From positions 1 through 22,968 of IMG/VR virus record IMGVR_UViG_3300046000_002700: DNA of 22,968 nucleotides; one strand, 5' to 3'. Shown piece by piece: positions 3,587 through 22,910 of this stretch. Each line of letters starts with the position of its first letter. The first letter of the stretch is position 1. Made by a program: the position numbers and the translations under genes. This DNA comes from a virus. The notes under the pieces are model-generated. The model was not told the origin of the DNA. It made no database searches and saw only the letters and a list, made by a program, of their open reading frames with translations.

Positions 3587-4933
3587 TTATCCTGCAACGG
3601 TCCAATTTTTTGCTGTTGCGATTGCGCGGTTGTCCGTTGCTGTTCCGTAGTTGTTTGATACGGTTATGGTTTGTGTTGGTAGCGCAGTTAAATCGGCAAG
3701 GTTAGTGTAAATTTCGTTTAGTTCGGTTGCGCCAAGCGTGGAACTTGAAAATGAAACACTGCTCTTTATACCTGTTGCTAAAACCCGTTTAAGTGAGCTG
3801 CCACTTGAAACAAAAAGACTCATGTTTGTTGCGCTTGAGCAATCAAGTGCTGGAATGCTCTGAAGCGATCTACAATTGTTAAACATAACGGCCATTGATT
3901 GTGCTAAAGAAGTATTAAATAAAGAAATGCTCTGAAGTGATGTGCATCCAGAAAATATACTGGTCATGTTTGTTACCGCCGAAGTATTTAATAAAGGCAT
4001 ACTTTGAAGTGATGTGCAATTGGAAAACATGCTGGACATGTTTGTTACCGCCGAAGTATTTAATAATGGAATGCCCTGAAGTGATGTGCATCCAGTAAAC
4101 ATACTGGTCATGTTTGTTACCGCCGAAGTATTTAATAAAGGAATGCCCTGAAGCGAGGAACACCCAGTAAACATGCTAATCATGTTTGTTACAGCAGAAG
4201 TATTAAACAACGGAATGTTTTGAAGTGAGGGGCAAAAATTGAACATAAAATTCATGTTTGTTACAGCCGAAGTATTAAGCAACGGAACATTTTGAAGTGA
4301 GGAACACCCACTAAACATACCATTTATACTTGTTACCGCAGAGGTATTAAATAACGGAACACTTTGAAGCGAAGAGCAAACATTAAATAAATTTTCTAAA
4401 TTTGTCGCATTATGCGAAAGAATAGTGCATTGTTGAAGCAATCTTGTTCCTGCTATTGTCCCACCGATTGCCAATGTTGTGCAATTTGGAGCGGATAAGG
4501 TAATTTCAAGAATTGGAGTAGTATATGACGTGATCCCAAGTGCTGAGTGCTTAAAATTAAACGAGATAGATGTAAGGTCTACTCCTGCTTGCGGGGTTAT
4601 GACAATCATTGCCTGTCGCATTTTAGAACCAATCGGCCCAATTTCTGTTGATGCGGAGAGACTGCTATAAACATAATTATGCTGCGCTGTAACTCCAGTT
4701 GCAATATTTTCAATGATACCGTCACCCCAATCAACGGTATATTCTTTGGAACAACGAAAAGCAAAAAAATTGCTGTTATTGTCTCCAACAAGAACAAGCG
4801 CGGCAGCTTTCTGTTCTGAAGAAGTAATTATTGGCATAGCAATCCAATCGCTTGGTCGAACCCAACCAGAATCGGGTGTCACGCCAGATACAAGAGTAGT
4901 GCCAAGATAGATTTTCCCAGTAGTTGTAGGCAT
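3587..4933 (-). CDS. Tail fibre/adhesin with BspA-type (DUF285) leucine-rich repeats, 448 aa
   Basis: The start overlaps the stop of the upstream fibre by one base (TAATG). Residues 1-60 look like an attachment domain. A segment around 64-72 reads EYTVDWGDG, as in PKD-like beta domains. Residues 169-384 hold nine 24-residue repeats with the consensus NTSAVTNM..MF..C.SLQ, the BspA/DUF285 leucine-rich pattern known from bacterial surface adhesins. The C-terminus (LNEIYTNLADL, then NYGTATDNRAIATAKNWTV) resembles the end caps of other repeat-bearing phage fibres. The likely role is host recognition as a distal fibre or an adhesin on the virion. The protein lacks a signal peptide, which fits a virion protein rather than a secreted one. 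Confidence 0.87.
   Translation of the reverse strand: MPTTTGKIYLGTTLVSGVTPDSGWVRPSDWIAMPIITSSEQKAAALVLVGDNNSNFFAFRCSKEYTVDWGDGIIENIATGVTAQHNYVYSSLSASTEIGPIGSKMRQAMIVITPQAGVDLTSISFNFKHSALGITSYTTPILEITLSAPNCTTLAIGGTIAGTRLLQQCTILSHNATNLENLFNVCSSLQSVPLFNTSAVTSINGMFSGCSSLQNVPLLNTSAVTNMNFMFNFCPSLQNIPLFNTSAVTNMISMFTGCSSLQGIPLLNTSAVTNMTSMFTGCTSLQGIPLLNTSAVTNMSSMFSNCTSLQSMPLLNTSAVTNMTSIFSGCTSLQSISLFNTSLAQSMAVMFNNCRSLQSIPALDCSSATNMSLFVSSGSSLKRVLATGIKSSVSFSSSTLGATELNEIYTNLADLTALPTQTITVSNNYGTATDNRAIATAKNWTVAG
3782..4429 (-). repeat. Nine tandem 72-bp coding repeats (24-aa LRR units)
   Basis: Nine in-frame units of 72 bp encode the BspA-type repeats (residues 169-384). The middle six are closely similar in DNA, each with a form of GTTACCGCCGAAGTATT or its near variant on the plus strand, while the first and last units have diverged. 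Such arrays can gain or lose whole units by recombination without breaking the frame, since the unit is a multiple of three. This is coding repetition, not a CRISPR array. Confidence 0.9.
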
Positions 4934-6718: not shown

Positions 6719-7378
6719 TCAAATCGCTGCGAGTCTCTTTTGATTTGCATGGGAAAAATCATCTTGTTCAGAATCTGGAATGTGAAACCAAGAAGAACGG
6801 AGAGCAGAGCAAATGACCGTTGGTGCCGAGTTGATGGTAACGACCTGCCTTGCCTTTGCTATGTATGCGCAAAGCGTCTCGATTGAATCAAACTCACGCA
6901 TTCCGAGGTCTTTCTTTCCAACGCAAATCACAGGATTCCCATTCGCAATTATATGGGCAAGTTGAATGATTTTGGATGTGTCGTATCTGATGTTTTGCGA
7001 GTATCCAAGCGGGAAGCATAGAACCGAGTCCTGTATTATTGGAGGAACGCAAATTGCAGGAGCGTTTAAATGTATTTCCCTTGGTATTTCCTCTCCTTCT
7101 TCAATCAAATCCCAAATGTAATCAGCCCATTTTTTCCCGCTCGTTCTGAAATTATTATACCTATTCGGCCAAATCTGAAGATCAATCACCCTGTCGAAGT
7201 AATTCCTGTCAGAATCTGGACGGCAAGGCGCACAATAATCAACCGTCTCAAAAAGGTTGTGATATTCCTCGTTGCATTCAAATACAACCTCGTTTCCTAA
7301 TTTGTGAAAGTATTCAGCGATTGGAAGGCATCGCAAAATGTCGCCAAGTCGCAAGTGATAAATTATTAAAATTCTCAT
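6719..7378 (-). CDS. GT9-like (heptosyltransferase-type) glycosyltransferase, 219 aa
   Basis: The N-terminus MRILIIYHLRLGDILRCLPI matches the opening of ADP-heptose:LPS heptosyltransferases and other GT-B family 9 enzymes, where a basic residue and LGD start the first Rossmann fold. Late residues TLCAYIAKARQVVTINSAPT with VICSALRSS match the second GT-B half, which normally reads L..L...A...V..DSGP.HLA.A. At 219 aa it is much shorter than the usual 320-350 aa, so one lobe is reduced. It starts in a 4-nt overlap with the methyltransferase. It probably transfers or recognises a sugar within the cassette; loss of activity through shortening is possible. Donor and acceptor are unknown. Confidence 0.72.
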   Translation of the reverse strand: MRILIIYHLRLGDILRCLPIAEYFHKLGNEVVFECNEEYHNLFETVDYCAPCRPDSDRNYFDRVIDLQIWPNRYNNFRTSGKKWADYIWDLIEEGEEIPREIHLNAPAICVPPIIQDSVLCFPLGYSQNIRYDTSKIIQLAHIIANGNPVICVGKKDLGMREFDSIETLCAYIAKARQVVTINSAPTVICSALRSSWFHIPDSEQDDFSHANQKRLAAI

Positions 7379-7998
7379 ATTCTCTCAAACACCATTGAAA
7401 GGATGTTCTTGTTGCCGTCTTTTCGTATTGTATCCTCAATATCCGAGTCGATGATTGGCAAGAAATTGCAAGAGCGCATAATTGCTATCAGAGAATCTGT
7501 CTTGAAGTGGTGCAGGTGTTCGTCTTCTCGCCTGTGCTTCCAAGATTTGAACCAATCGTCCGATGGGTAATGGCAATGTGGAACAGAAATGACAACATAT
7601 CGGCAATTCAAATTTTCAATTGTTGGTGCTGGATTCTCGAAATGCTCTAACACGTCAAAAAATGTTACAACTTCCACGCCGATGCTAAAAATATCTTCAA
7701 CAAATTTAACCCCAGTTGGCGGCATTATTCCTGTGATGTCGTTTCCGAAGCAATGCGGGATGATGTTCTTTGCAGCGTCTAAAAACTCTCCGCTTCCATA
7801 GCCAACATCCAAAATTGAACTTGGAACATGGCCGATCGCCCCAACGATGAAGCCCAAACGCAAGTGCGCCATTTGCTGGCATTTCTCAGGATATTTTTTG
7901 TATCTGTCGGCAATGTATTTTTTGTCGTAGTTCGTTTTCTCTGCAATTTCAATCTGAGAAATCACACCGAATTCGTCTTTTCTGTAATTCTCAAGCAT
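7375..7998 (-). CDS. Class I SAM-dependent methyltransferase, 207 aa
   Basis: Start at ATG 7998, with GAAGGA about 9 nt upstream inside the end of the preceding gene; a longer frame to 8076 would overlap that gene by 86 nt. Motif I, ILDVGYGSGEF, is at residues 62-72 and binds S-adenosylmethionine. FFDVLEHFENP at 113-123 is the post-I acidic loop typical of Methyltransf_23-like enzymes. ISVPHCHYPSD and WKHRREDEHLHHF at 137-165 form a histidine-rich region seen in many sugar-cassette methyltransferases. There is no DNA-methylase catalytic motif (DPPY/NPPY or PC). Set between two glycosyltransferases, it most likely methylates a sugar or glycan; this is inference from context. Confidence 0.85.
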   Translation of the reverse strand: MLENYRKDEFGVISQIEIAEKTNYDKKYIADRYKKYPEKCQQMAHLRLGFIVGAIGHVPSSILDVGYGSGEFLDAAKNIIPHCFGNDITGIMPPTGVKFVEDIFSIGVEVVTFFDVLEHFENPAPTIENLNCRYVVISVPHCHYPSDDWFKSWKHRREDEHLHHFKTDSLIAIMRSCNFLPIIDSDIEDTIRKDGNKNILSMVFERI

Positions 7999-9667
7999 TG
8001 CCGTGGATTCCTTCAAATATCTTCTTTGCTCTGTTGTATTCCTCAACATCATTCCCTCGCTCATAAGTCGCGTCAAGCGGCCTATTCTCCCAAAACGGAT
8101 GATGATGAATTATTGCGATGTCCTTTGCCTCAACAATCGCATTATTTTTTGCTGCCCTAAATGTAAAGTCCGTGTCTGAGTAAACATTTTTGAAGGCAGG
8201 GTTAAAAAGCCCATGCTTTTCAAAATATGGTTTTGTCAGGATCGCCATGCACAACAATTCGTCTTTTCTGTATCCATCAGAAATGCGAAGAACTTGTTCC
8301 TTTGTAATATCAAGCCTCGCTTCAATCATTTCATCCCATGCGGGAGGGCATTCCCAATCATCCGACAACTGAATAATTATGTCCCCGATACATTCTTTCG
8401 CACCTAAATTCCACGCACCGACTGAATATCCGTTATCCTTCTGAATTATGTGCCTAAATCTTTGAAGAGTTTTTGATTTTTCATCGTCCTCATCAAAAAC
8501 AAAGATATGCTCGATCCTTTCTGGATGTTTTGCCCTTGCAAACCACATTGCCATTGCCTGAGTTGCGACTAACGGTCTGCCCCTTGTGGCATGAATCAAG
8601 GATATTTTGGGAAGTGCGGAAGAATTCAGAACCGACATTTCAAATCCCTTCGCTTCATCGCCTCGTCCCAATTCTCGTAAGCACCACGCTTTTAGGTGTT
8701 GAGCCTTCCACGTATACCACTCTTCTCTGTGCGTCCACTGCTTAAAGCTTGGAACAGGAATCTTCAGCATTTCCTCAACAAGTAACAACGCCTCTTCTGG
8801 CTTTTTGTTATCAAGCAAAGTTGAAGCTTCCAATCCGTATGCCTCGCGCCTGTTTGGTTCTAATGCTCTCGCCTGTTTTACAAGGCGCAATGCCGTTTCC
8901 TCTGTTGTCAGCATCGAGCAATTCATAAGCGTCTCGTATTTATGAACGCCATCAAGGTCGATCATCGCTAATGCCTCAGAACCATACTTTGCAGACTCGG
9001 CATGGTTTCCGGTGATGAAGTTTTCGTAATGAAGGTAAAATTTGTAATGCGATGACATTTTGTCGTTGTGCATCAAAATCCGCTTGTTCCTTTCGTTGCT
9101 TGGCCGAACGCCGATTGGAGGTTGATGAACAATCTCAAGGTCGCGCCTCATGTATAGCTTCACGTCATTTGTAGGTTGGACATTTTCGTGAATCGGGCGA
9201 TGCCACCATCCCGTTTTGTAACGGAAGAACCTCTCCCTCGGAGCGCGCTTGTTTTGCTCTGCAATTACATAGTCTGTAAGAATCCATTGGAAGTCTGACG
9301 GGCAATCTTGCAACGCTTTTAGGTGAGGTTCTGCCATCTCCGGCATGAGAACATCGTCGCAGTCCGCCCACATTGACCACCCATCGACTCCTGCAAGCTC
9401 GTAGGCTTGTGCGAACGCTTGATTCCTTGCCGCTCCAAAATCATCCAAGTGAGCCCACTCGGCAACAAGTGGAGAGTTAAAATATTCCCCCACATAACAC
9501 CCAAGCTTTTTTGCAATGCTTAACGTCTTGTCTGGCTCAAGTGAACCAATCGCTCGGATGATTACAATTTCATCGCAAATTTGTTGAAGTGACTTTACGC
9601 ATCGCTCGATCCTTGGCTCTTCATTGCCGCAAATCAGCCCAGCTACCAACTTATTTTTTCGGTTCAT
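7991..9667 (-). CDS. Two-domain glycosyltransferase (two GT-A/GT2 folds), 558 aa
   Basis: ATG 9667 opens MNRKNKLVAGLICGNEE, a usual GT2 beginning; the longer frame upstream reads through the terminator and is rejected. Domain one (about 1-200) has the metal-binding acidic motif WADCDD at 100-105 and a conserved WWHRPIHEN segment. Residues about 205-345 are helical and TPR-like (ALEPNRREAYGLEASTLLDN, then EEALLLVEEML). Domain two (about 353-558) begins KISLIHATRGRP, has FDEDDEKS, then QLSDDWECPPAWD and YSDTDFTFRA, a second GT-A fold. Such double enzymes can add two sugars or make a repeat. It leads the three-gene sugar cassette and follows the capsid terminator. Targets could be the virion, host surface glycans, or a nucleotide-linked sugar. 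Confidence 0.87.
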   Translation of the reverse strand: MNRKNKLVAGLICGNEEPRIERCVKSLQQICDEIVIIRAIGSLEPDKTLSIAKKLGCYVGEYFNSPLVAEWAHLDDFGAARNQAFAQAYELAGVDGWSMWADCDDVLMPEMAEPHLKALQDCPSDFQWILTDYVIAEQNKRAPRERFFRYKTGWWHRPIHENVQPTNDVKLYMRRDLEIVHQPPIGVRPSNERNKRILMHNDKMSSHYKFYLHYENFITGNHAESAKYGSEALAMIDLDGVHKYETLMNCSMLTTEETALRLVKQARALEPNRREAYGLEASTLLDNKKPEEALLLVEEMLKIPVPSFKQWTHREEWYTWKAQHLKAWCLRELGRGDEAKGFEMSVLNSSALPKISLIHATRGRPLVATQAMAMWFARAKHPERIEHIFVFDEDDEKSKTLQRFRHIIQKDNGYSVGAWNLGAKECIGDIIIQLSDDWECPPAWDEMIEARLDITKEQVLRISDGYRKDELLCMAILTKPYFEKHGLFNPAFKNVYSDTDFTFRAAKNNAIVEAKDIAIIHHHPFWENRPLDATYERGNDVEEYNRAKKIFEGIHGNA

Positions 9668-9689
9668 ATCTATTTCGGGTTTTATGTCA

Positions 9690-9721
9690 AAAGCAAAACC
9701 CCGCTCCGTATGGAGCGGGGT
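9690..9721 (-). terminator. Intrinsic terminator after the major capsid gene
   Basis: A perfect 10-bp GC-rich stem, ACCCCGCTCC (9698-9707) and GGAGCGGGGT (9712-9721), closes on a 4-nt loop. On the minus strand it is followed by TTTTGCTTTTG, a U-rich tract. It lies 35 nt beyond the major capsid stop at 9757 and 30 nt before the glycosyltransferase start. It should end most capsid transcripts and lower or separate expression of the sugar cassette and tail genes. Confidence 0.85.
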
Positions 9722-9756
9722 ATATGAACCCAAACATAACACACTAAACCTACATA

Positions 9757-16163: not shown

Positions 16164-17378
16164 TTATTTTTTAGTTAATTTATTTTTGTTCTTCTTGATT
16201 TCAAGATATTTTGCATACGCATCAGACTTCGGTTGAGTCATGCCAAGTCCTTTGCACCACCAATCATTTCTTAAAAGAACTTTGCAAAGCCTTCTCCAAG
16301 ATGGAACCCAATGCTTGTTTTCTAATTCTTTTGGTGCGTAATCTGGTATTTCACCATTATATCCTCTTTTCCTCCATCCCTTAATATGATCCTTAAACCT
16401 TTCAATAAAGTGATCTTTGCTGATTTCAGGCAATGTTGATAATAGCAAATTGCAAAAACTTTTATATGTATGATTGGGAGGCAATGTTATTTTATTGATT
16501 CCATTTATATTACCAATTTCATTAATATATAACGAACCACTATTTGCCCCATTAACGCGAGCTACAACCTTAAACCAACTTTGTGGTTCAAGTATATGGT
16601 ATAACCATAGTCCTTTTTTTTGATCATCCCCATAGGGTTGACACAACCTTTGTTGTGATAAAGGAACTCCAGCTTGATGCATTAAATCATAAATGTGATT
16701 ATGACATTTATCAGCTTTTTTATTATAAATCCAAATATCTTTCGTTTTCCAATCATATATTGGATATACGTTATATATACCCCCTGTTATTTTTGTAGTC
16801 CATCTTTTATTATTATATGTTTCTTTATCGGAAACAGCAATTGTTCTAAATCTGTTCAAACTTTCGTCTGCGCGTATTCCAACAAAAACAGCTAATGGAT
16901 TCCCATTGGAATACCATTCAGCAAACATAATTATAAATTCTTCAAATTCTAAGTTTTTTACAAAAAATGGATAATAATTTTGATCACTTACTACTCCATC
17001 AAATTTAGGGATTTGCCTCACCCAATCATTTTTATGATCATCATCCCAGCAAGTCCATGAAGGTTGATAATTCGATACAGCATTTCTTAGTTTCATTGGA
17101 AGACATATCCAATGTAATTCAATGTGATCTTTGTATAATTCAAACATTTCACGGGCATGATTTGATGTAGCAATATATTGAGCTTCAAAATCAATTAGCA
17201 TTATCCCAATTTTCCGGTTCCTTTGAATTGCTTCATCCATTACTAAATGAAACATTACAGAAGAATCCTTCCCTCCAGAAAATGAAAGAAGTATTTTTTC
17301 AAAATTATCAAATGTATATGCAATTCTTTCCTTTGCAGCAGTCAATACGTTTTTTGAGATCGGTCTTTTAAGTTGCAT
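16164..17378 (-). CDS. ibrA: IbrA-like PAPS reductase-family (DUF3440) protein, 404 aa
   Basis: Residues 31-42 hold the PP-loop LSFSGGKDSSVM, which binds ATP and is shared by PAPS reductases, DndC and other adenylating enzymes. Further segments fit the IbrA/YbdN (DUF3440) group: TCWDDDHKNDWVRQIP near 109, FVGIRADESLNRF near 165, YPIYDWKTKDIW near 205, LCQPYGDDQKKGLWLYHILE near 244. The length matches (IbrA is about 400 aa). The cysteines are not set as an iron-sulfur cluster that I can see. In E. coli, ibrA and ibrB raise expression of eib immunoglobulin-binding genes, but the reaction is unknown. It follows the IbrB-like gene by 1 nt (TAA-T-ATG), so the two are co-translated. True sulfate assimilation is unlikely without cysH partners. 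Confidence 0.88.
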   Translation of the reverse strand: MQLKRPISKNVLTAAKERIAYTFDNFEKILLSFSGGKDSSVMFHLVMDEAIQRNRKIGIMLIDFEAQYIATSNHAREMFELYKDHIELHWICLPMKLRNAVSNYQPSWTCWDDDHKNDWVRQIPKFDGVVSDQNYYPFFVKNLEFEEFIIMFAEWYSNGNPLAVFVGIRADESLNRFRTIAVSDKETYNNKRWTTKITGGIYNVYPIYDWKTKDIWIYNKKADKCHNHIYDLMHQAGVPLSQQRLCQPYGDDQKKGLWLYHILEPQSWFKVVARVNGANSGSLYINEIGNINGINKITLPPNHTYKSFCNLLLSTLPEISKDHFIERFKDHIKGWRKRGYNGEIPDYAPKELENKHWVPSWRRLCKVLLRNDWWCKGLGMTQPKSDAYAKYLEIKKNKNKLTKK

Positions 17379-17379
17379 A

Positions 17380-18522
17380 TTAATAAATGTCTGCTTTCGT
17401 TTTTGATTGAGCCTCTTCCCATTTAAGCTGAGTTCTATTATTTTTTAAAAGCCAGATATTTAAATACTCTAATGCCTTTAAATCTGCATCCTTTTGTTGT
17501 TCACTTGAAAGCAGGTTATACCCACCGCAAAAACGTGAGGGTATTCCAGAATCAATGCAAAGCGAAGCTTGTCCAAGCCAAGCGATGCGATTCATTTTTG
17601 AATTTGTTAAATAATGCTCACAAGAGTTCTTCCATTGCTCAATCACTTTTTTTAATGCTGATTCAAATCTTGGAATGTCAGATAAAAAATCTTTATACAA
17701 AATCTCACATTCTTCGGCAGTCATACTCTTCGGTGGCTTGTCTGAATAGAATCCAGATGGGAAGCATTCCCAATCTTCCCATTCGTGGAATATTCTTTCA
17801 TTGTCTTGCTCACTTTCTGAAATGTCTGATTCATCTAACAAATTAAATTTCTCTTCATCAACAATTGCAGAATCCCATGCTTGACTAAATTTTTGATCTG
17901 AAAAAACATCTTGTAATCCAGAAATTTGACAAAGCCTTAAAACCTCATCGCTATCCATTCCAAGTTCTTTTGCGATTCGCTCATCATTCCAATTCCTTTT
18001 TTTCAATTCGATGACAATATCAGACATCGCATTTACAGCGTGCTTACCCCTTGCCCTGTTATGACGGATTGTTGATGCCATACGGTTCGTCTTATCGATT
18101 TGCGTTTCTCTTATTTGAACGAGTGGCAAGTATCCGCAAATTCGTGATTGTATGCTTTCACATTCTTTCCCTACTCGATGTCGATGAAACCCATCAATAA
18201 CCTCAAAGCTACCATCAGGATCAGACATTGAAACAATTGGTTGAGTATAGCCATCAGAGTCTATTGATAAACGAAGTAATTCCATTTCTGGAGGGGCAAC
18301 GCTATTCGGGTTGTAGTCATTTGAATGAACCAAGTCATTTTTTACCCATCGTACAAAATCAACAGGTTCATTTTTGAATGGGGAAATTTGATGCAGCTTA
18401 AATCTTATCTGATTCAACGCATCAACTTTTTCAGCTAATTGAAGGGCGGAAATTGAATTGATTAAATTATCAATTGTATTTTCTGATTTGCCGAATAATT
18501 CCATTTGTTTTTCGTCGTTCAT
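17380..18522 (-). CDS. ibrB: IbrB-like ParB-fold protein with extra C-terminal domain, 380 aa
   Basis: Residues about 75-160 form a ParB/Srx-type domain: QPIVSMSDPDG, then VIDGFHRHRVGKE at 108-120 (the nucleotide-binding G-x-x-R signature) and STIRHNRARGKH at 150-161. An HTH-like stretch follows at about 178-202 (NDERIAKELGMDSDEVLRLC). IbrB of E. coli is about 210 aa and ends near here. Residues 243-362 add a distinct domain with HEWEDWECFPSGFY, SCEHYLTN, MNRIAWLGQASLC and a GGYNLLS segment. I recall a similar domain near IbrA genes in other phages, possibly as a separate gene. With no ParA, chromosome partition is not its job. Together with IbrA it may regulate genes or modify a nucleic acid or nucleotide. 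Confidence 0.85.
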   Translation of the reverse strand: MNDEKQMELFGKSENTIDNLINSISALQLAEKVDALNQIRFKLHQISPFKNEPVDFVRWVKNDLVHSNDYNPNSVAPPEMELLRLSIDSDGYTQPIVSMSDPDGSFEVIDGFHRHRVGKECESIQSRICGYLPLVQIRETQIDKTNRMASTIRHNRARGKHAVNAMSDIVIELKKRNWNDERIAKELGMDSDEVLRLCQISGLQDVFSDQKFSQAWDSAIVDEEKFNLLDESDISESEQDNERIFHEWEDWECFPSGFYSDKPPKSMTAEECEILYKDFLSDIPRFESALKKVIEQWKNSCEHYLTNSKMNRIAWLGQASLCIDSGIPSRFCGGYNLLSSEQQKDADLKALEYLNIWLLKNNRTQLKWEEAQSKTKADIY

Positions 18523-18999: not shown

Positions 19000-20733
19000 C
19001 TACGCCTCCGCGCCTATCGGCAAAACTCCTGCCAACATTGCCGATGCGATTGCGATACATTCGCAGTCCCAAAGATGGTTTGGCCTTCCACCAATGCGCA
19101 CCCATCTTTGCTCAACCTGTTTCGTCTTTGCGTTCACAATATCCTTTTTCATCTCGCTCAACATTTGCTTGCGGTAATTGTCGGAAACATCCCTCGGGAC
19201 TTCCCATTTCAATGTTGCATCAGGCTGTCGAAGCGATGCCAACTTGTCCTTCACCTTTTCGTTGCTGTAGAAAAAATATGCGCATTTTAGCCCGTCCGAT
19301 CCGGCTTGCGCCCCTTCAATTTTAGAAACAAATCGACGCGTCCTTCTGCTCCCCTCCATGTGATAAAATCCATCTTGCCCTGATCCGTGGGAGGCGGTCC
19401 AATTTCTTCGTGCGCATTGTTCGTAAACCAGCGGCGTATCATACCCAGCATCAATAACCACGCACCTCGGTTGGATTTCGAACTGCGATTGGATTGCATC
19501 GATGGTTTCCCAAGTCAAAGGACGCGATTCGTGCAGAAGCATCGAAGACCCGTCAACCCTAAACGCCCGGACGATTGCCCAAAAGTGATCCCGCTGTTTA
19601 TCCACGCACAGAAACCTCCGATGCTCCCCATCTATTTTCTGCCCTTCCAAAAATTCTGTTTTGGAAAAGTCGCCCACCGATATTTCTGGCAAGTCGCTCG
19701 TGATTTCATTCTGCCAAGTTTGCGCCTTCCGTTTCTGCACGAATTGTTTTAGCGGTTCAATGTTCCCGCTGTTCTTTGCCTCGTTCGCCTCAATCCATTC
19801 CTTAACGATGGTAAACCAAGGAATCCACCAGACGGCATAAGCCGGATACTCGTAAGATTTATGACCACGAATCGGATGCGGGTTTAATGATCGATAGCTG
19901 GATCTCGTTGATAAATCCCTACGGACTGCTGCCGTGTCCTGATATTCGTGCTTGCAATGCTCGCAAACCATCCGCACAGAGTCTTGCACGTTGTCCCATA
20001 GAACATTGTTCCTTTCATCCCTGTCAGCAACGTATTTTATAGCCTCAAATAAGTATCTCTGCCAGTTCCCACATTGGGAACATTCCCATCCCCAAGCTTC
20101 CCTTGTCCCACTCTCCCATTCGACGTCTGCTTCATGCCCTGCATCCCATCCCTGCGAGACAAGAATTGTCTTCCGATTCCATCTGTCGTGATGCCGTGCC
20201 TTGAGTTCCTTGATCATTCCTCCCTTCCACCGCCAAACCTCGTCCCCAATGCAGTAACGCATGGACTTCTCTTGAAGGTTTGTCATGTTCGCCCCTCCTG
20301 CGAAAAGAACCATGTGCGGGAACAGGATCGTAGTTTTGCGCATTGCGTGCCTGTCTTGAGGGAATAGTTCCCTGACAGGCTGGCACTCGTTGAAAATAGG
20401 AATCAATCGGCTTTCAGTCCAATCTTTCACCATATCGTCAGTTTGACCCACAAACAATGTCGGTCCAGACTTCTGAGCGACAATAAAACACGCAATCGTT
20501 TCCATCATTGTCGTCTTTCCTCCACCAGTAGGGGCGCGAAGAAAGATTTGCGTTGTCTCGTCATCACTTGCCGCAAGCAAGGGATCGTTCAGCCAAGGCG
20601 CAACGCTTGGATCAAATCTGCTCGCACGATCAGAATTAGGAAAATTCACATTCTCACTTGCCCAATCAAGAATCGTCCCAGAATACGCCAGTTTGATGCC
20701 GGCCGCTATGCCTTCCAATAACGGATTGATCAT
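19000..20733 (-). CDS. Terminase large subunit (lambda gpA type), 577 aa
   Basis: The start overlaps the small subunit stop by 4 nt. ATPase: Walker A RAPTGGGKTTMMET at 66-79, a Walker B-like CIGDEVW at 161-167 with D164 and E165. Paired cysteines C218/C221 and C257/C260 likely bind zinc, as in gpA-family enzymes. Nuclease: CVDKQRDHFW with D378, VVIDAGYDTP with D428, and HLWDCECIAIA with D556, the three acids of the RNase H-like fold. GpA packs DNA into the portal and cuts concatemers, in lambda at cos. At 577 aa it is a little shorter than lambda gpA (641 aa). It works with the small subunit, portal and perhaps the HNH protein. Confidence 0.94.
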   Translation of the reverse strand: MINPLLEGIAAGIKLAYSGTILDWASENVNFPNSDRASRFDPSVAPWLNDPLLAASDDETTQIFLRAPTGGGKTTMMETIACFIVAQKSGPTLFVGQTDDMVKDWTESRLIPIFNECQPVRELFPQDRHAMRKTTILFPHMVLFAGGANMTNLQEKSMRYCIGDEVWRWKGGMIKELKARHHDRWNRKTILVSQGWDAGHEADVEWESGTREAWGWECSQCGNWQRYLFEAIKYVADRDERNNVLWDNVQDSVRMVCEHCKHEYQDTAAVRRDLSTRSSYRSLNPHPIRGHKSYEYPAYAVWWIPWFTIVKEWIEANEAKNSGNIEPLKQFVQKRKAQTWQNEITSDLPEISVGDFSKTEFLEGQKIDGEHRRFLCVDKQRDHFWAIVRAFRVDGSSMLLHESRPLTWETIDAIQSQFEIQPRCVVIDAGYDTPLVYEQCARRNWTASHGSGQDGFYHMEGSRRTRRFVSKIEGAQAGSDGLKCAYFFYSNEKVKDKLASLRQPDATLKWEVPRDVSDNYRKQMLSEMKKDIVNAKTKQVEQRWVRIGGRPNHLWDCECIAIASAMLAGVLPIGAEA

Positions 20734-21314
20734 ATTTTCAAAAGTTCCCCCTGCATTTCTCCCAAAATGCCCTGCACTCGATCATTCAACTTCTTCCTCA
20801 ATTCCACTTCCCCCAATCCTGCTAAAGCTCCGCTGGCATCGTTTACAAGCGCGGAAAGCTTTGCCGATAGGATTGCCCCAAATCTAATCCCTGCTTCTCT
20901 CACCTCCAGGTTCTTCACGTATTCACCCCGATCAACTGCAAGCGCATATTCAATCCGTTCGCATTCCAACAATGTTTTGCGTAGCCTCGCCTCGTTCAGT
21001 CCTTTCGGCGCATCCTTTCCCCTCCCATTGGTTTCAAGGAATTTCTTGCGCCACGCTTCAGCCTCGGCCATCGAAGTCATCGGCATTCCTGCCTTGACCA
21101 TCTTGTGGACGTTGGGTTGCGTCATCCCCCATGCCTTTGCGATTTTCTGTTGAGTAAGTTTCCCTGTCTTTTTTTCCGATGCAAATTCTGAAGCGATCTT
21201 CGACTCTCTGGCGGTTAGAGTTTTCCCGCTCTTTAATTTTTGCAGGATATTCTTAAACTCGGCCTCTTTTATCTTCTGCTCTAAATCAACTGGTTTCTCG
21301 CTTTCCTTTTTCAT
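20730..21314 (-). CDS. Terminase small subunit, 194 aa
   Basis: Both ends lie in 4-nt overlaps. After a charged N-terminus, residues 53-74 form a helix-turn-helix (LTQQKIAKAWGMTQPNVHKM), as expected for recognition of the packaging site. The C-terminal half (GLNEARLRKTLLECERIEYAL, then VREAGIRFGAILSAKLSALV) matches the usual Nu1-like ending that joins the subunit to its ring and to the large subunit; lambda Nu1 is about 181 aa. Position directly before gpA confirms the role. Confidence 0.9.
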   Translation of the reverse strand: MKKESEKPVDLEQKIKEAEFKNILQKLKSGKTLTARESKIASEFASEKKTGKLTQQKIAKAWGMTQPNVHKMVKAGMPMTSMAEAEAWRKKFLETNGRGKDAPKGLNEARLRKTLLECERIEYALAVDRGEYVKNLEVREAGIRFGAILSAKLSALVNDASGALAGLGEVELRKKLNDRVQGILGEMQGELLKI

Positions 21315-22165
21315 TTCTTAAATGATTCATCCAAGATACACGGAACTGCATTCTTCCAAGAAACCCGATGGTGCATCCTCCGGAATACCGGACCCATATC
21401 CATCACCTTAACGCATGACGGAGAATACATTACAGAATACATCGACTTTACGTATGTTCCTGATTCCATGTATAACTCCGTCATCCCTCCTGAGTTGCTT
21501 TGCGTCTGCTTTTGCCTGATTGCCACATTTGGGATCGTCAGGAACAAATCGCCCCTTCTTCCTCCGCACGTATATAAATTAACGTCCTCGTTGATCCTGC
21601 CAAAGAATTTAAACGGCCTTTCAGTAGAACAAACAAAGGTGTTCATCGCTTTGCGCCAAGGTTTAACCTTTTGCGCTTTGCTTCCATTCTTTCCACCTAT
21701 GAAATCTCCATTTTGTGCCATCGCAACCGACAATGCTTGGGAAGCTTCAAGAAAATCAATCATCGAATCAAAAACAGAATCAAGGTTTGAAAGGTTTGTC
21801 TTTTCAGAATAATTATTTTTAGAGTCAAACTTATACATAAAATCCGTATAATCATCATCCAATTCAATAAAGTATTTGATCCCAAGTTTTTTTGCTACAT
21901 CAAAACAAGCATTCCTTGCATAAACGATTGATCGCCTATCCCCAAAATTATCGCCCTCGTCAAATGTATCAGATATTTTCTTCTTGTTGAAAACATTAAC
22001 GATGCCCTTAAATTTCTTATTGTATTCCTCCAATGTTTTGTCTTCGTTATCAACTAAAATAATAACCTTTCCAGTATATCCGTGCTTCTTTAACGAATTG
22101 AAAGTATAAACTTTGCTCGCTCTCCCGTGGGTTAAAATGAAAGCAACAAAGTCTTTATTCTTCAT
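21311..22165 (-). CDS. TET-associated-type glycosyltransferase (TAGT), 284 aa
   Basis: The start is ATG 22165, inside the ParB-fold gene's last 11 nt. The N-terminus FVAFILTHGRASKVYTFNSL, then GKVIILVDNEDKTLEEY, and DEGDNFGDRRSIVYARNACF near 69-88 are the wording I know from the TAGT family (TET-associated glycosyltransferase, GREB1-related) in phages. FIELDDDYTDF at 99-109 carries the metal-binding DxD. GRINEDVNLY at 189-198 is a second acidic site. The end, FRRMHHRVSWKNAVP, is also typical. Family members are predicted to add sugars to modified bases in phage DNA. No TET/JBP hydroxylase or hydroxymethyl-pyrimidine synthase is in the window, so its acceptor is open. It sits between ParB and terminase, as in other phages I recall. 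Confidence 0.82.
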   Translation of the reverse strand: MKNKDFVAFILTHGRASKVYTFNSLKKHGYTGKVIILVDNEDKTLEEYNKKFKGIVNVFNKKKISDTFDEGDNFGDRRSIVYARNACFDVAKKLGIKYFIELDDDYTDFMYKFDSKNNYSEKTNLSNLDSVFDSMIDFLEASQALSVAMAQNGDFIGGKNGSKAQKVKPWRKAMNTFVCSTERPFKFFGRINEDVNLYTCGGRRGDLFLTIPNVAIRQKQTQSNSGGMTELYMESGTYVKSMYSVMYSPSCVKVMDMGPVFRRMHHRVSWKNAVPCILDESFKK

Positions 22166-22910
22166 CTGGATTATCTATGTTATACATCTCATTTATTTTT
22201 TCAGTCAAAGAAACAAACCCAAGCTCGATCGCCTTCTTGAAGTCGATAATTACCAAAACAGATTCCTCCATCAATTCTTGAACCTCCTTCGAGGAATGTG
22301 CGTAATACTCCGCAATGTTTTCAAAGTTGAAAACCGTATGCCTTTGCGCAGCCGTAATCAAAAAATCCTTCTCATCCTTTGAAAGCTTTGAAAGATTTAT
22401 GCTTTCAATTATCTTTTTTGTTTTTGAATCATCAAACAATTCAGGGATCGATGGTTTAGTTCCCTTCGGTTCATATTTTGGCGACTCAACTTTCCTCGTA
22501 TACGCATCCCCCTTCGACTCTAAATCATCCTCCCATCCATCATCCCACCCCAAGCCCGAAATGTCGATTCCTTCCCCCAGCAATCCTTTCAACTCATTTC
22601 TAAGAATCTCTTCATCCCATCCGCCACCGATCTCCGCCAGTCTGTTGTCGGCGAGAATGTAGGCTTTCCTCTGAACGTCGGTTAAGTGATCGAGCCTGAT
22701 GCAAGGAACCTCGGCAAGTTCAAGCTTCTGCGCGGCCATCACCCTACCATGCCCAGCAATGATCCCGTTGTCGCAGTCGATCAAAACTGGATTGTTAAAA
22801 CCAAATTCTCTAATCGATCCAGCAATTTTTGAAATTTGAATCTCGTCGTGCTTTTTTGCGTTCCGTGCGTAAGGAATCAGCTTTTCAGTAAGGATTTTCT
22901 CGATTTTCAT
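22155..22910 (-). CDS. ParB/Srx-fold protein with extra C-terminal domain, 251 aa
   Basis: Residues 1-95 form the ParB N-terminal domain: KLIPYARNAKKH at 10-21, GFNNPVLIDCDNGIIAGHGR at 37-56 with the GHGR nucleotide site, and YILADNRLAE at 84-93. In many phages this domain is fused to a DNA methylase; here no methylase motif follows. Instead, a domain at about 140-240 (KYEPKGTKPSIPELFDD, then QRHTVFNFENIAEYYAHSS and LVIIDFKKAIELGFV) follows. I recall that text from phage proteins next to TAGT genes. ParB folds bind CTP or ATP and some act as kinases or in base modification. With no ParA, partition is unlikely. It overlaps the upstream frame by 4 nt and the TAGT by 11 nt. Confidence 0.85.
   Translation of the reverse strand: MKIEKILTEKLIPYARNAKKHDEIQISKIAGSIREFGFNNPVLIDCDNGIIAGHGRVMAAQKLELAEVPCIRLDHLTDVQRKAYILADNRLAEIGGGWDEEILRNELKGLLGEGIDISGLGWDDGWEDDLESKGDAYTRKVESPKYEPKGTKPSIPELFDDSKTKKIIESINLSKLSKDEKDFLITAAQRHTVFNFENIAEYYAHSSKEVQELMEESVLVIIDFKKAIELGFVSLTEKINEMYNIDNPDEE

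Follow-up and report, generated by a model that had tools for sequence, protein, structure and literature searches.

The Pfam family PF20691 of TET-associated glycosyltransferases (TAGTs) includes the enzyme of phage T6 that glucosylates glucosyl-hydroxymethylcytosine (glucosyl-hmC) in DNA (PMC13216743, PMC13390438). A 2026 study counted solitary TAGTs in 288 of 753 phage genomes and, without settling what they do, considered them probable novel transferases (PMC13216743). Our analysis concerns a TAGT encoded beside the terminase genes of the virus represented by a single IMG/VR record, IMGVR_UViG_3300046000_002700, whose 22,968 bases are referred to here as the window. It showed that this enzyme is paired with a previously undescribed domain of about 110 amino acids (aa), forming the C-terminal part of a ParB/Srx-type protein encoded immediately upstream, and that TAGTs of this subtype have this domain as their obligate partner. 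The pair probably belongs to a conserved variant of phage DNA hypermodification. With moderate confidence, as predicted from sequence and structural models, we favour a late-expressed phage DNA-glycosylation module whose acceptor would not be 5-hydroxymethylcytosine (5hmC) or 5-hydroxymethyluracil (5hmU) supplied by any recognised phage enzyme.

The TAGT gene (21311-22165, minus strand) encodes a 284-aa protein with a GT-A fold. It was assigned to the TAGTs in the initial annotation, and profile searches confirm this at about 125 bits against PF20691 (124.7-125.1 bits), far over the gathering cut-off of 27.5; the score against phrog_842 is 245 bits. Its AlphaFold model (pLDDT 86, pTM 0.86) matched GT-A enzymes and viral TAGTs in Foldseek, the best structural matches being TAGTs (TMq 0.85-0.86), and a sequence search of the PDB gave no convincing match. 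The GT-A motifs are kept across 23 diverse TAGTs: a putative metal/nucleotide-sugar DxD motif, L-DDD-Y (residues 102-106; 21848-21862, minus strand), in which D104, D105 and Y106 are invariant; a putative catalytic acid/base region, N-E-D-V (residues 192-195; 21581-21592, minus strand), in which N192, D194 and V195 are invariant; and an invariant H-H pair (residues 265-266; 21368-21373, minus strand). Close relatives show strong purifying selection, with a ratio of non-synonymous to synonymous substitution rates (dN/dS) of 0.024-0.025. The invariance of these motifs and the very low dN/dS, together with the insertion of a donor-synthesis-like gene in one lineage (see below), make it hardly credible that the ParB protein, its C-terminal domain and the TAGT form a non-catalytic regulator or packaging accessory, an idea that draws on the state of the gene in some Lactobacillus delbrueckii phages. 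There the TAGT is decaying: the phiLdb copy (L044, 848-1713) is annotated as two open reading frames (ORFs) and the Ld17 and LL-Ku copies are partial, so that the enzyme appears dispensable in those phages.

The fold neighbours of the TAGT model in the PDB include TarP and chondroitin polymerase, which brings up the possibility that the enzyme acts on glycans or the virion surface (O-antigen, teichoic acid, tail or capsid protein) and lies beside the terminase by chance. The window indeed holds a cassette with a GT2-type glycosyltransferase (583 aa), a class I methyltransferase (233 aa) and an unassigned protein of 219 aa among its structural genes, but that cassette is elsewhere (6719-9742). 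The examined TAGT modules adjoin ParB-terminase or replication genes rather than tail or membrane glycan genes, and with TAGTs as the best structural matches we consider a glycan acceptor very improbable.

The ParB/Srx-type protein (251 aa; 22155-22910, minus strand; 206 bits against phrog_620) is the product of the first gene of a minus-strand operon in which it overlaps the TAGT gene by 11 nt, the TAGT gene overlaps that of the terminase small subunit (TerS) by 4 nt, and the TerS gene overlaps that of the large subunit (TerL) by 4 nt. The initial annotation had described the ParB, TAGT and terminase genes as overlapping, and its coordinates and gene calls prove correct by ORF positions and by Pfam and PHROG profiles. 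It had also called the C-terminal part of the ParB protein non-methylase, which is borne out: this TAGT-partner domain (residues 132-251; 22155-22517, minus strand) is helical and has no PDB or Pfam match, its profile finding nothing convincing among PDB sequences and the Foldseek hits of the ParB model covering the N-terminal domain. The alignment of the ParB proteins contrasts a variable N-domain with the conserved C-terminal 110 aa or so (conserved Y146, R190, H191, Y203, D223 and G231), and there are loci in which identity to the window is down to 19-32% for the N-domain but 42-58% for the C-domain and 50-60% for the TAGT; in L014, L017, L019, L021 and L041, for instance, the three values are 19-28%, 42-54% and 53-60%.

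A search with the C-domain only returned, among the matches listed, 46 genome loci and 80 viral loci, a sample of at least 126, with a TAGT in 126 of 126 and within 300 bp in 117; 30 of these loci carry a stand-alone C-domain gene without ParB. A TAGT was likewise always present in loci fetched with ParB when the C-domain was present, and the hits counted as full-length for the window ParB (coverage of at least 80%) fall in 22 phage records, all with a TAGT, the other listed ParB matches covering the N-domain only. In Vibrio phage pv27, the 139-aa 'hypothetical protein' encoded directly upstream of the TAGT is a stand-alone C-domain. Such stand-alone pairs are usually part of replication modules and tend to adjoin DnaB, sliding-clamp-like, AAA and PDDEXK genes. 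The core of the module is the TAGT plus the C-domain of about 110 aa, and not 'ParB plus TAGT': the pair noticed originally is real, and the true partner of the TAGT, in all 126 listed loci, is the C-terminal domain rather than the ParB fold. As a side observation, L156 (4041-6204) has a stand-alone C-domain gene between two TAGT genes, the first of which is very divergent (72 bits).

Relatives of the TAGT were found in 41 IMG/VR loci and 44 phage records, including E. coli and Salmonella prophage-type phages, the Lactobacillus phages jlb1, c5 and phiLdb, the Nocardia phage NTR1, Porphyromonas phages and the haloarchaeal virus HHTV-2. In each of the 47 TAGT loci with upstream sequence, the immediate upstream, overlapping gene is a ParB-type ORF (C-domain alone in L042), an arrangement far beyond chance, and the conservation of the neighbourhood holds across phyla; these counts include related sequences and many records are fragments. 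At least 80% of the ParB/TAGT pair is present, in Rac-type prophages, in 887 of 5,426 complete E. coli genomes (about one in six), where the copy is annotated as ynaK and 'GREB1-related protein' by the Prokaryotic Genome Annotation Pipeline (PGAP). The ynaK of K-12 is a truncated 5' remnant of the module ParB that overlaps ydaY after a deletion (L049, 5959-6562, E. coli BW25113); intact copies are present in many other E. coli. Our literature search gave nothing relevant on ParB-TAGT, ynaK or DNA modification in these phages, with an earlier mention in Iyer 2013 or Shin 2021 being possible.

The N-terminal ParB/Srx domain (residues 1-120; 22551-22910, minus strand) has conserved N17, a GxxR motif (G53, R56) and N89, with G53, R56 and N89 invariant in the ParB alignment (A1). 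The protein scores 21.9 bits against Pfam ParB_N, under the cut-off of 26.3, and the N-domain of the AlphaFold model matches Noc/ParB CTPases, sulfiredoxin and free serine kinase in Foldseek. N-domains 70-86% identical to that of the window occur without the C-domain, and those of sibling phages also lie upstream of terminase-type genes, followed by or fused to other modification enzymes: a Mom protein (L079 type; PF25680, 122 bits), TET/JBP (L075 type; PF12851, 45 bits), a C5-cytosine methyltransferase (L077 type; 170 bits), fused N6/N4 methyltransferases (L078 and L084 types), phrog_11143, an ABC-type ATPase/GNAT acetyltransferase fusion (L085 type, comprising L085, L099, L109 and L121), a phosphoribosyltransferase domain (L094) and other TAGTs (L070, L098 and L108 types). 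At the window locus, too, a conserved N-domain is encoded directly upstream of a predicted DNA-modifying enzyme, ahead of TerS and TerL. On sequence comparison the N-domain is an exchangeable hub, or add-on, coupled in its other occurrences among these phages to DNA methyltransferases, Mom or TET/JBP. As DNA is the actual or annotated target of most of these partners, it is the likely substrate of the TAGT by analogy, and this is the strongest argument in hand for it. Gene context also makes phrog_11143 a candidate new DNA-modification enzyme. Ahead of the terminase-type genes of L075, L076, L080 and L089 come the N-domain, a TET/JBP dioxygenase and then one further gene (phrog_28597, methyltransferase-like phrog_8156, in the case of L075), possibly forming a TET-dependent hypermodification locus.

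If DNA is the acceptor, the question is which base would carry the sugar. A longer record, L002 (G001; 36,010 bp), aligns with the window in two blocks of 14,613 and 8,475 bp at 100% identity and has a direct terminal overlap of 126 bp, and for these two reasons it is a closed genome of the window virus. No TET/JBP gene and no member of the thymidylate-synthase/hydroxymethylase family (PF00303) was found in this genome with Pfam, and among the ORFs scanned there was no other recognisable base-modifying gene except one further ParB-plus-enzyme pair, next to this same terminase: another protein of ParB type (phrog_2159, 380 aa) and, directly downstream, a DUF3440/PAPS-reductase (window 16164-18522) that is IbrA-like and has weak DndC/BrxP similarity. 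A hidden acceptor gene elsewhere in the 36-kb genome thus has no candidate. The association with TET/JBP from which TAGTs are named is likewise missing from the module-bearing records (0 of about 64): PF12851 was found in none of them in searches over 33 and 37 records, the latter of which recovered the TET/JBP of the L075 record as a positive control, and PF00303 in none in searches over 33 and 35 records. Phage pv27, which has one PF00303 gene, was considered as an hmC phage without ParB and rejected, this gene being annotated as thymidylate synthase beside dihydrofolate reductase and the TAGT partner being the stand-alone C-domain gene.

Given the lack of a TET/JBP or dCMP/dUMP hydroxymethylase in the closed genome, in the other records and in the E. 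coli Rac-type prophages, the acceptor is most likely not a hydroxymethyl-pyrimidine from a recognised phage enzyme. The initial annotation had seen no TET/JBP or hydroxymethylase, which stands for the closed genome and some 60 other records, and had suggested either that the base-modifying step is encoded elsewhere or that the acceptor is a different one; the former finds no recognised gene in the closed genome, and the latter agrees with an acceptor other than 5hmC or 5hmU of recognised origin. Classical glycosylation, on a hydroxymethyl base supplied by the host or by a diverged, unrecognised phage enzyme, has the family's precedents behind it (T6, the TAGTs of TET phages and base J), and C5-cytosine methyltransferases do occur in 3 of 45 module-bearing loci. 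To our knowledge, however, E. coli, the host of many of the prophages, does not make 5hmC or 5hmU in DNA, the closed genome offers no Pfam candidate, and a search able to recover the L075 TET/JBP returned none in the module-bearing records; we consider the classical route improbable. We put forward tentatively another route, in which the TAGT would attach the sugar straight to a canonical base of DNA, perhaps at an exocyclic amine, or to an acceptor from an unknown step, with no hydroxymethyl-pyrimidine pathway and with the swappable ParB NTPase domain providing the targeting, as it does for Mom, TET or methyltransferases in sibling phages on this reading.

Several points weigh against a DNA-glycosylation module. 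Identity to the T6 TAGT is very low, about 17% in a doubtful alignment; in no record was a source of a hydroxylated base found, which leaves the glycosylatable hydroxyl unexplained if DNA is the acceptor; and GREB1, a relative of the TAGT family by PGAP naming, is reported to glycosylate protein according to a work cited in PMC12645433, so that DNA is not the sole possible acceptor. The support that comes from a putative donor gene also counts only once. Nine related loci (L187, 4299-5285; L188, L191, L196, L226, L229, L234, L236 and L262) have a histidine-phosphatase/glycerol-3-phosphate-cytidylyltransferase-like fusion between the ParB-C gene and the TAGT, plausibly a donor-making enzyme, and as these loci form one phage lineage the insertion is a single event.

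The most serious rival, ahead of the classical route, is that the TAGT glycosylates a protein, be it the terminase, ParB or another DNA-bound phage protein, with the C-domain as acceptor or docking site. It could build on the precedent of GREB1 on the oestrogen receptor (cited in PMC12645433), on the 'GREB1-related' name of the E. coli homologue, on the absence of an acceptor-base gene from all of some 60 records, and on the invariant tyrosines Y146 and Y203 of the C-domain. Set against this, the ParB N-domain is common to enzymes with DNA substrates (Mom, C5- and N4/N6-methyltransferases, TET/JBP), the terminases beside the module are mutually unrelated, and the stand-alone modules lie away from the terminase, and we regard a protein acceptor as unlikely, if worth keeping in mind. 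The DNA-glycosylation module proposed originally, still a prediction, retains the support of the conserved neighbourhood, membership of the T6 family and the shared N-domain.

Downstream of the TAGT lie the genes for TerS (20730-21314, minus strand; phrog_57, 50 bits) and a gpA-type TerL (19000-20733, minus strand; 102 bits against PF05876 and 66 bits against PF20454, the Pfam families GpA_ATPase and GpA_nuclease). A TerL is encoded within about 4 kb downstream of the TAGT in at least 44 of 48 loci and belongs to clearly different families; among the C-domain matches listed, it was found in 71 of 96 ParB-linked loci vs 7 of 30 stand-alone ones (Fisher p 1e-6), all TerL counts being lower bounds because the TerL reference set is incomplete. 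Coupling to the terminase had been taken to mean either a late-stage act on DNA about to be packaged or a mark read by the terminase. As the TerL families are unrelated and the stand-alone modules, mostly away from a terminase, are found in replication loci, the mark is not favoured and was rejected as the default explanation. The adjacency is better read as late-gene timing, since temperate phages have reason not to modify the chromosome of their lysogen, a concern raised for phage eta (PMC3918226). L007, L012 and L036 carry a separate gene for a DNA methyltransferase between those of the TAGT and TerL; in L022 (1668-2585) and L023 this place is taken by phrog_691, a 'partition protein'.

We infer the chemistry, acceptor, donor and role of ParB in a DNA-glycosylation module as follows. 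The TAGT would transfer a sugar or polyol from a nucleotide donor of the host, or sometimes one made by the phage, to phage DNA, where the acceptor may be a normal base or one produced by an unrecognised step. The partner domain might dock and position the TAGT on the acceptor, or present the acceptor to it, and the ParB domain, as an NTP-binding DNA clamp or switch, may load or target the complex on phage DNA. With its genes in the terminase operon, the module would be expressed only in the late lytic phase: the DNA would receive its mark ahead of packaging, the chromosome of the lysogen would stay untouched, and the phage would probably gain resistance to restriction or CRISPR on entering its next host. 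If confirmed, glycosylation of DNA that needs no hydroxymethyl base would be a new anti-restriction chemistry of phages and a new labelling tool. Should the sugar go straight onto canonical bases, or onto an acceptor from an unknown step, phages of Bacteria and Archaea, among them prophages of about one in six E. coli genomes, would have a new class of DNA glycosylation, which might be sequence-specific.

Apart from these loci, the window encodes a 448-aa protein with DUF285 BspA-like repeats (3587-4933), directly downstream of a Phage_tail_C-domain protein; the underlying DNA repeats are imperfect, with shifted copies about 80% identical.

Several known systems share parts of this module. The ParB/Noc partition CTPases have the fold and GxxR motif of the window N-domain but differ in that no parS-binding helix-turn-helix was seen in the window protein, whose C-terminal half is the TAGT-partner domain, and no ParA was found among the genes scanned in this virus. 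Among eukaryotic enzymes, the base-J glucosyltransferase (JGT) acts on hmU in DNA and GREB1 on protein; Iyer 2013 and Shin 2021 are said to place both in the same wider glycosyltransferase group, and we know of no C-domain or ParB accompanying either. Related in gene context are the ParB-DNA methyltransferase fusions (phrog_498) and the ParB-Mom and ParB-TET loci, which have the same N-domain at the same site upstream of the terminase genes, but with a different tail after the N-domain and a methyltransferase, Mom or TET/JBP as the enzyme. One ParB-type N-domain at one genomic site is thus combined with Mom, TET/JBP, C5-, N4- and N6-methyltransferases, a GNAT fusion and two types of TAGT, so that phage ParB domains, usually annotated as partition proteins, seem rather to serve DNA modification as a general docking or switch unit.

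A near counterpart is the T6 beta-glucosyl-HMC-alpha-glucosyltransferase, like the window TAGT a phage GT-A enzyme of the same Pfam family according to the literature (PMC13216743; PMC13390438). Its gene, too, shows translational coupling to a partner encoded upstream: the two overlap by 4 nt, and the partner, annotated as thymidylate synthase, has 246 aa, the size of the dCMP hydroxymethylase of gene 42. The T6 partner thus resembles a dCMP hydroxymethylase and the substrate is glucosyl-hmC, whereas in the module described here the partner is the C-domain, with or without ParB, and there is no hydroxymethylase. A tree in which the deep split alone was used, one row (P_L119) being mis-framed and several branches long, separates the C-domain TAGTs from those of T6, Aeromonas phage 65, Vibrio phage 1.124.O, L070, L098 and L108 by a branch with 98/91 support. 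Homology (E about 1e-8) links the tail of the L098 ParB to an N-terminal extension fused to the TAGT in Aeromonas 65 and Vibrio 1.124.O, which suggests that this second TAGT type has an accessory domain of its own, carried on either ParB or the TAGT. Lastly, the window TAGT resembles the solitary phage TAGTs in that no alpha- or beta-glucosyltransferase was recognised among the genes scanned. One large subset of these enzymes now gains a defined partner domain, an operon and gene context, a taxonomic range, and tractable hosts in jlb1, HHTV-2, Nocardia NTR1 and the Rac-type prophages of E. coli.

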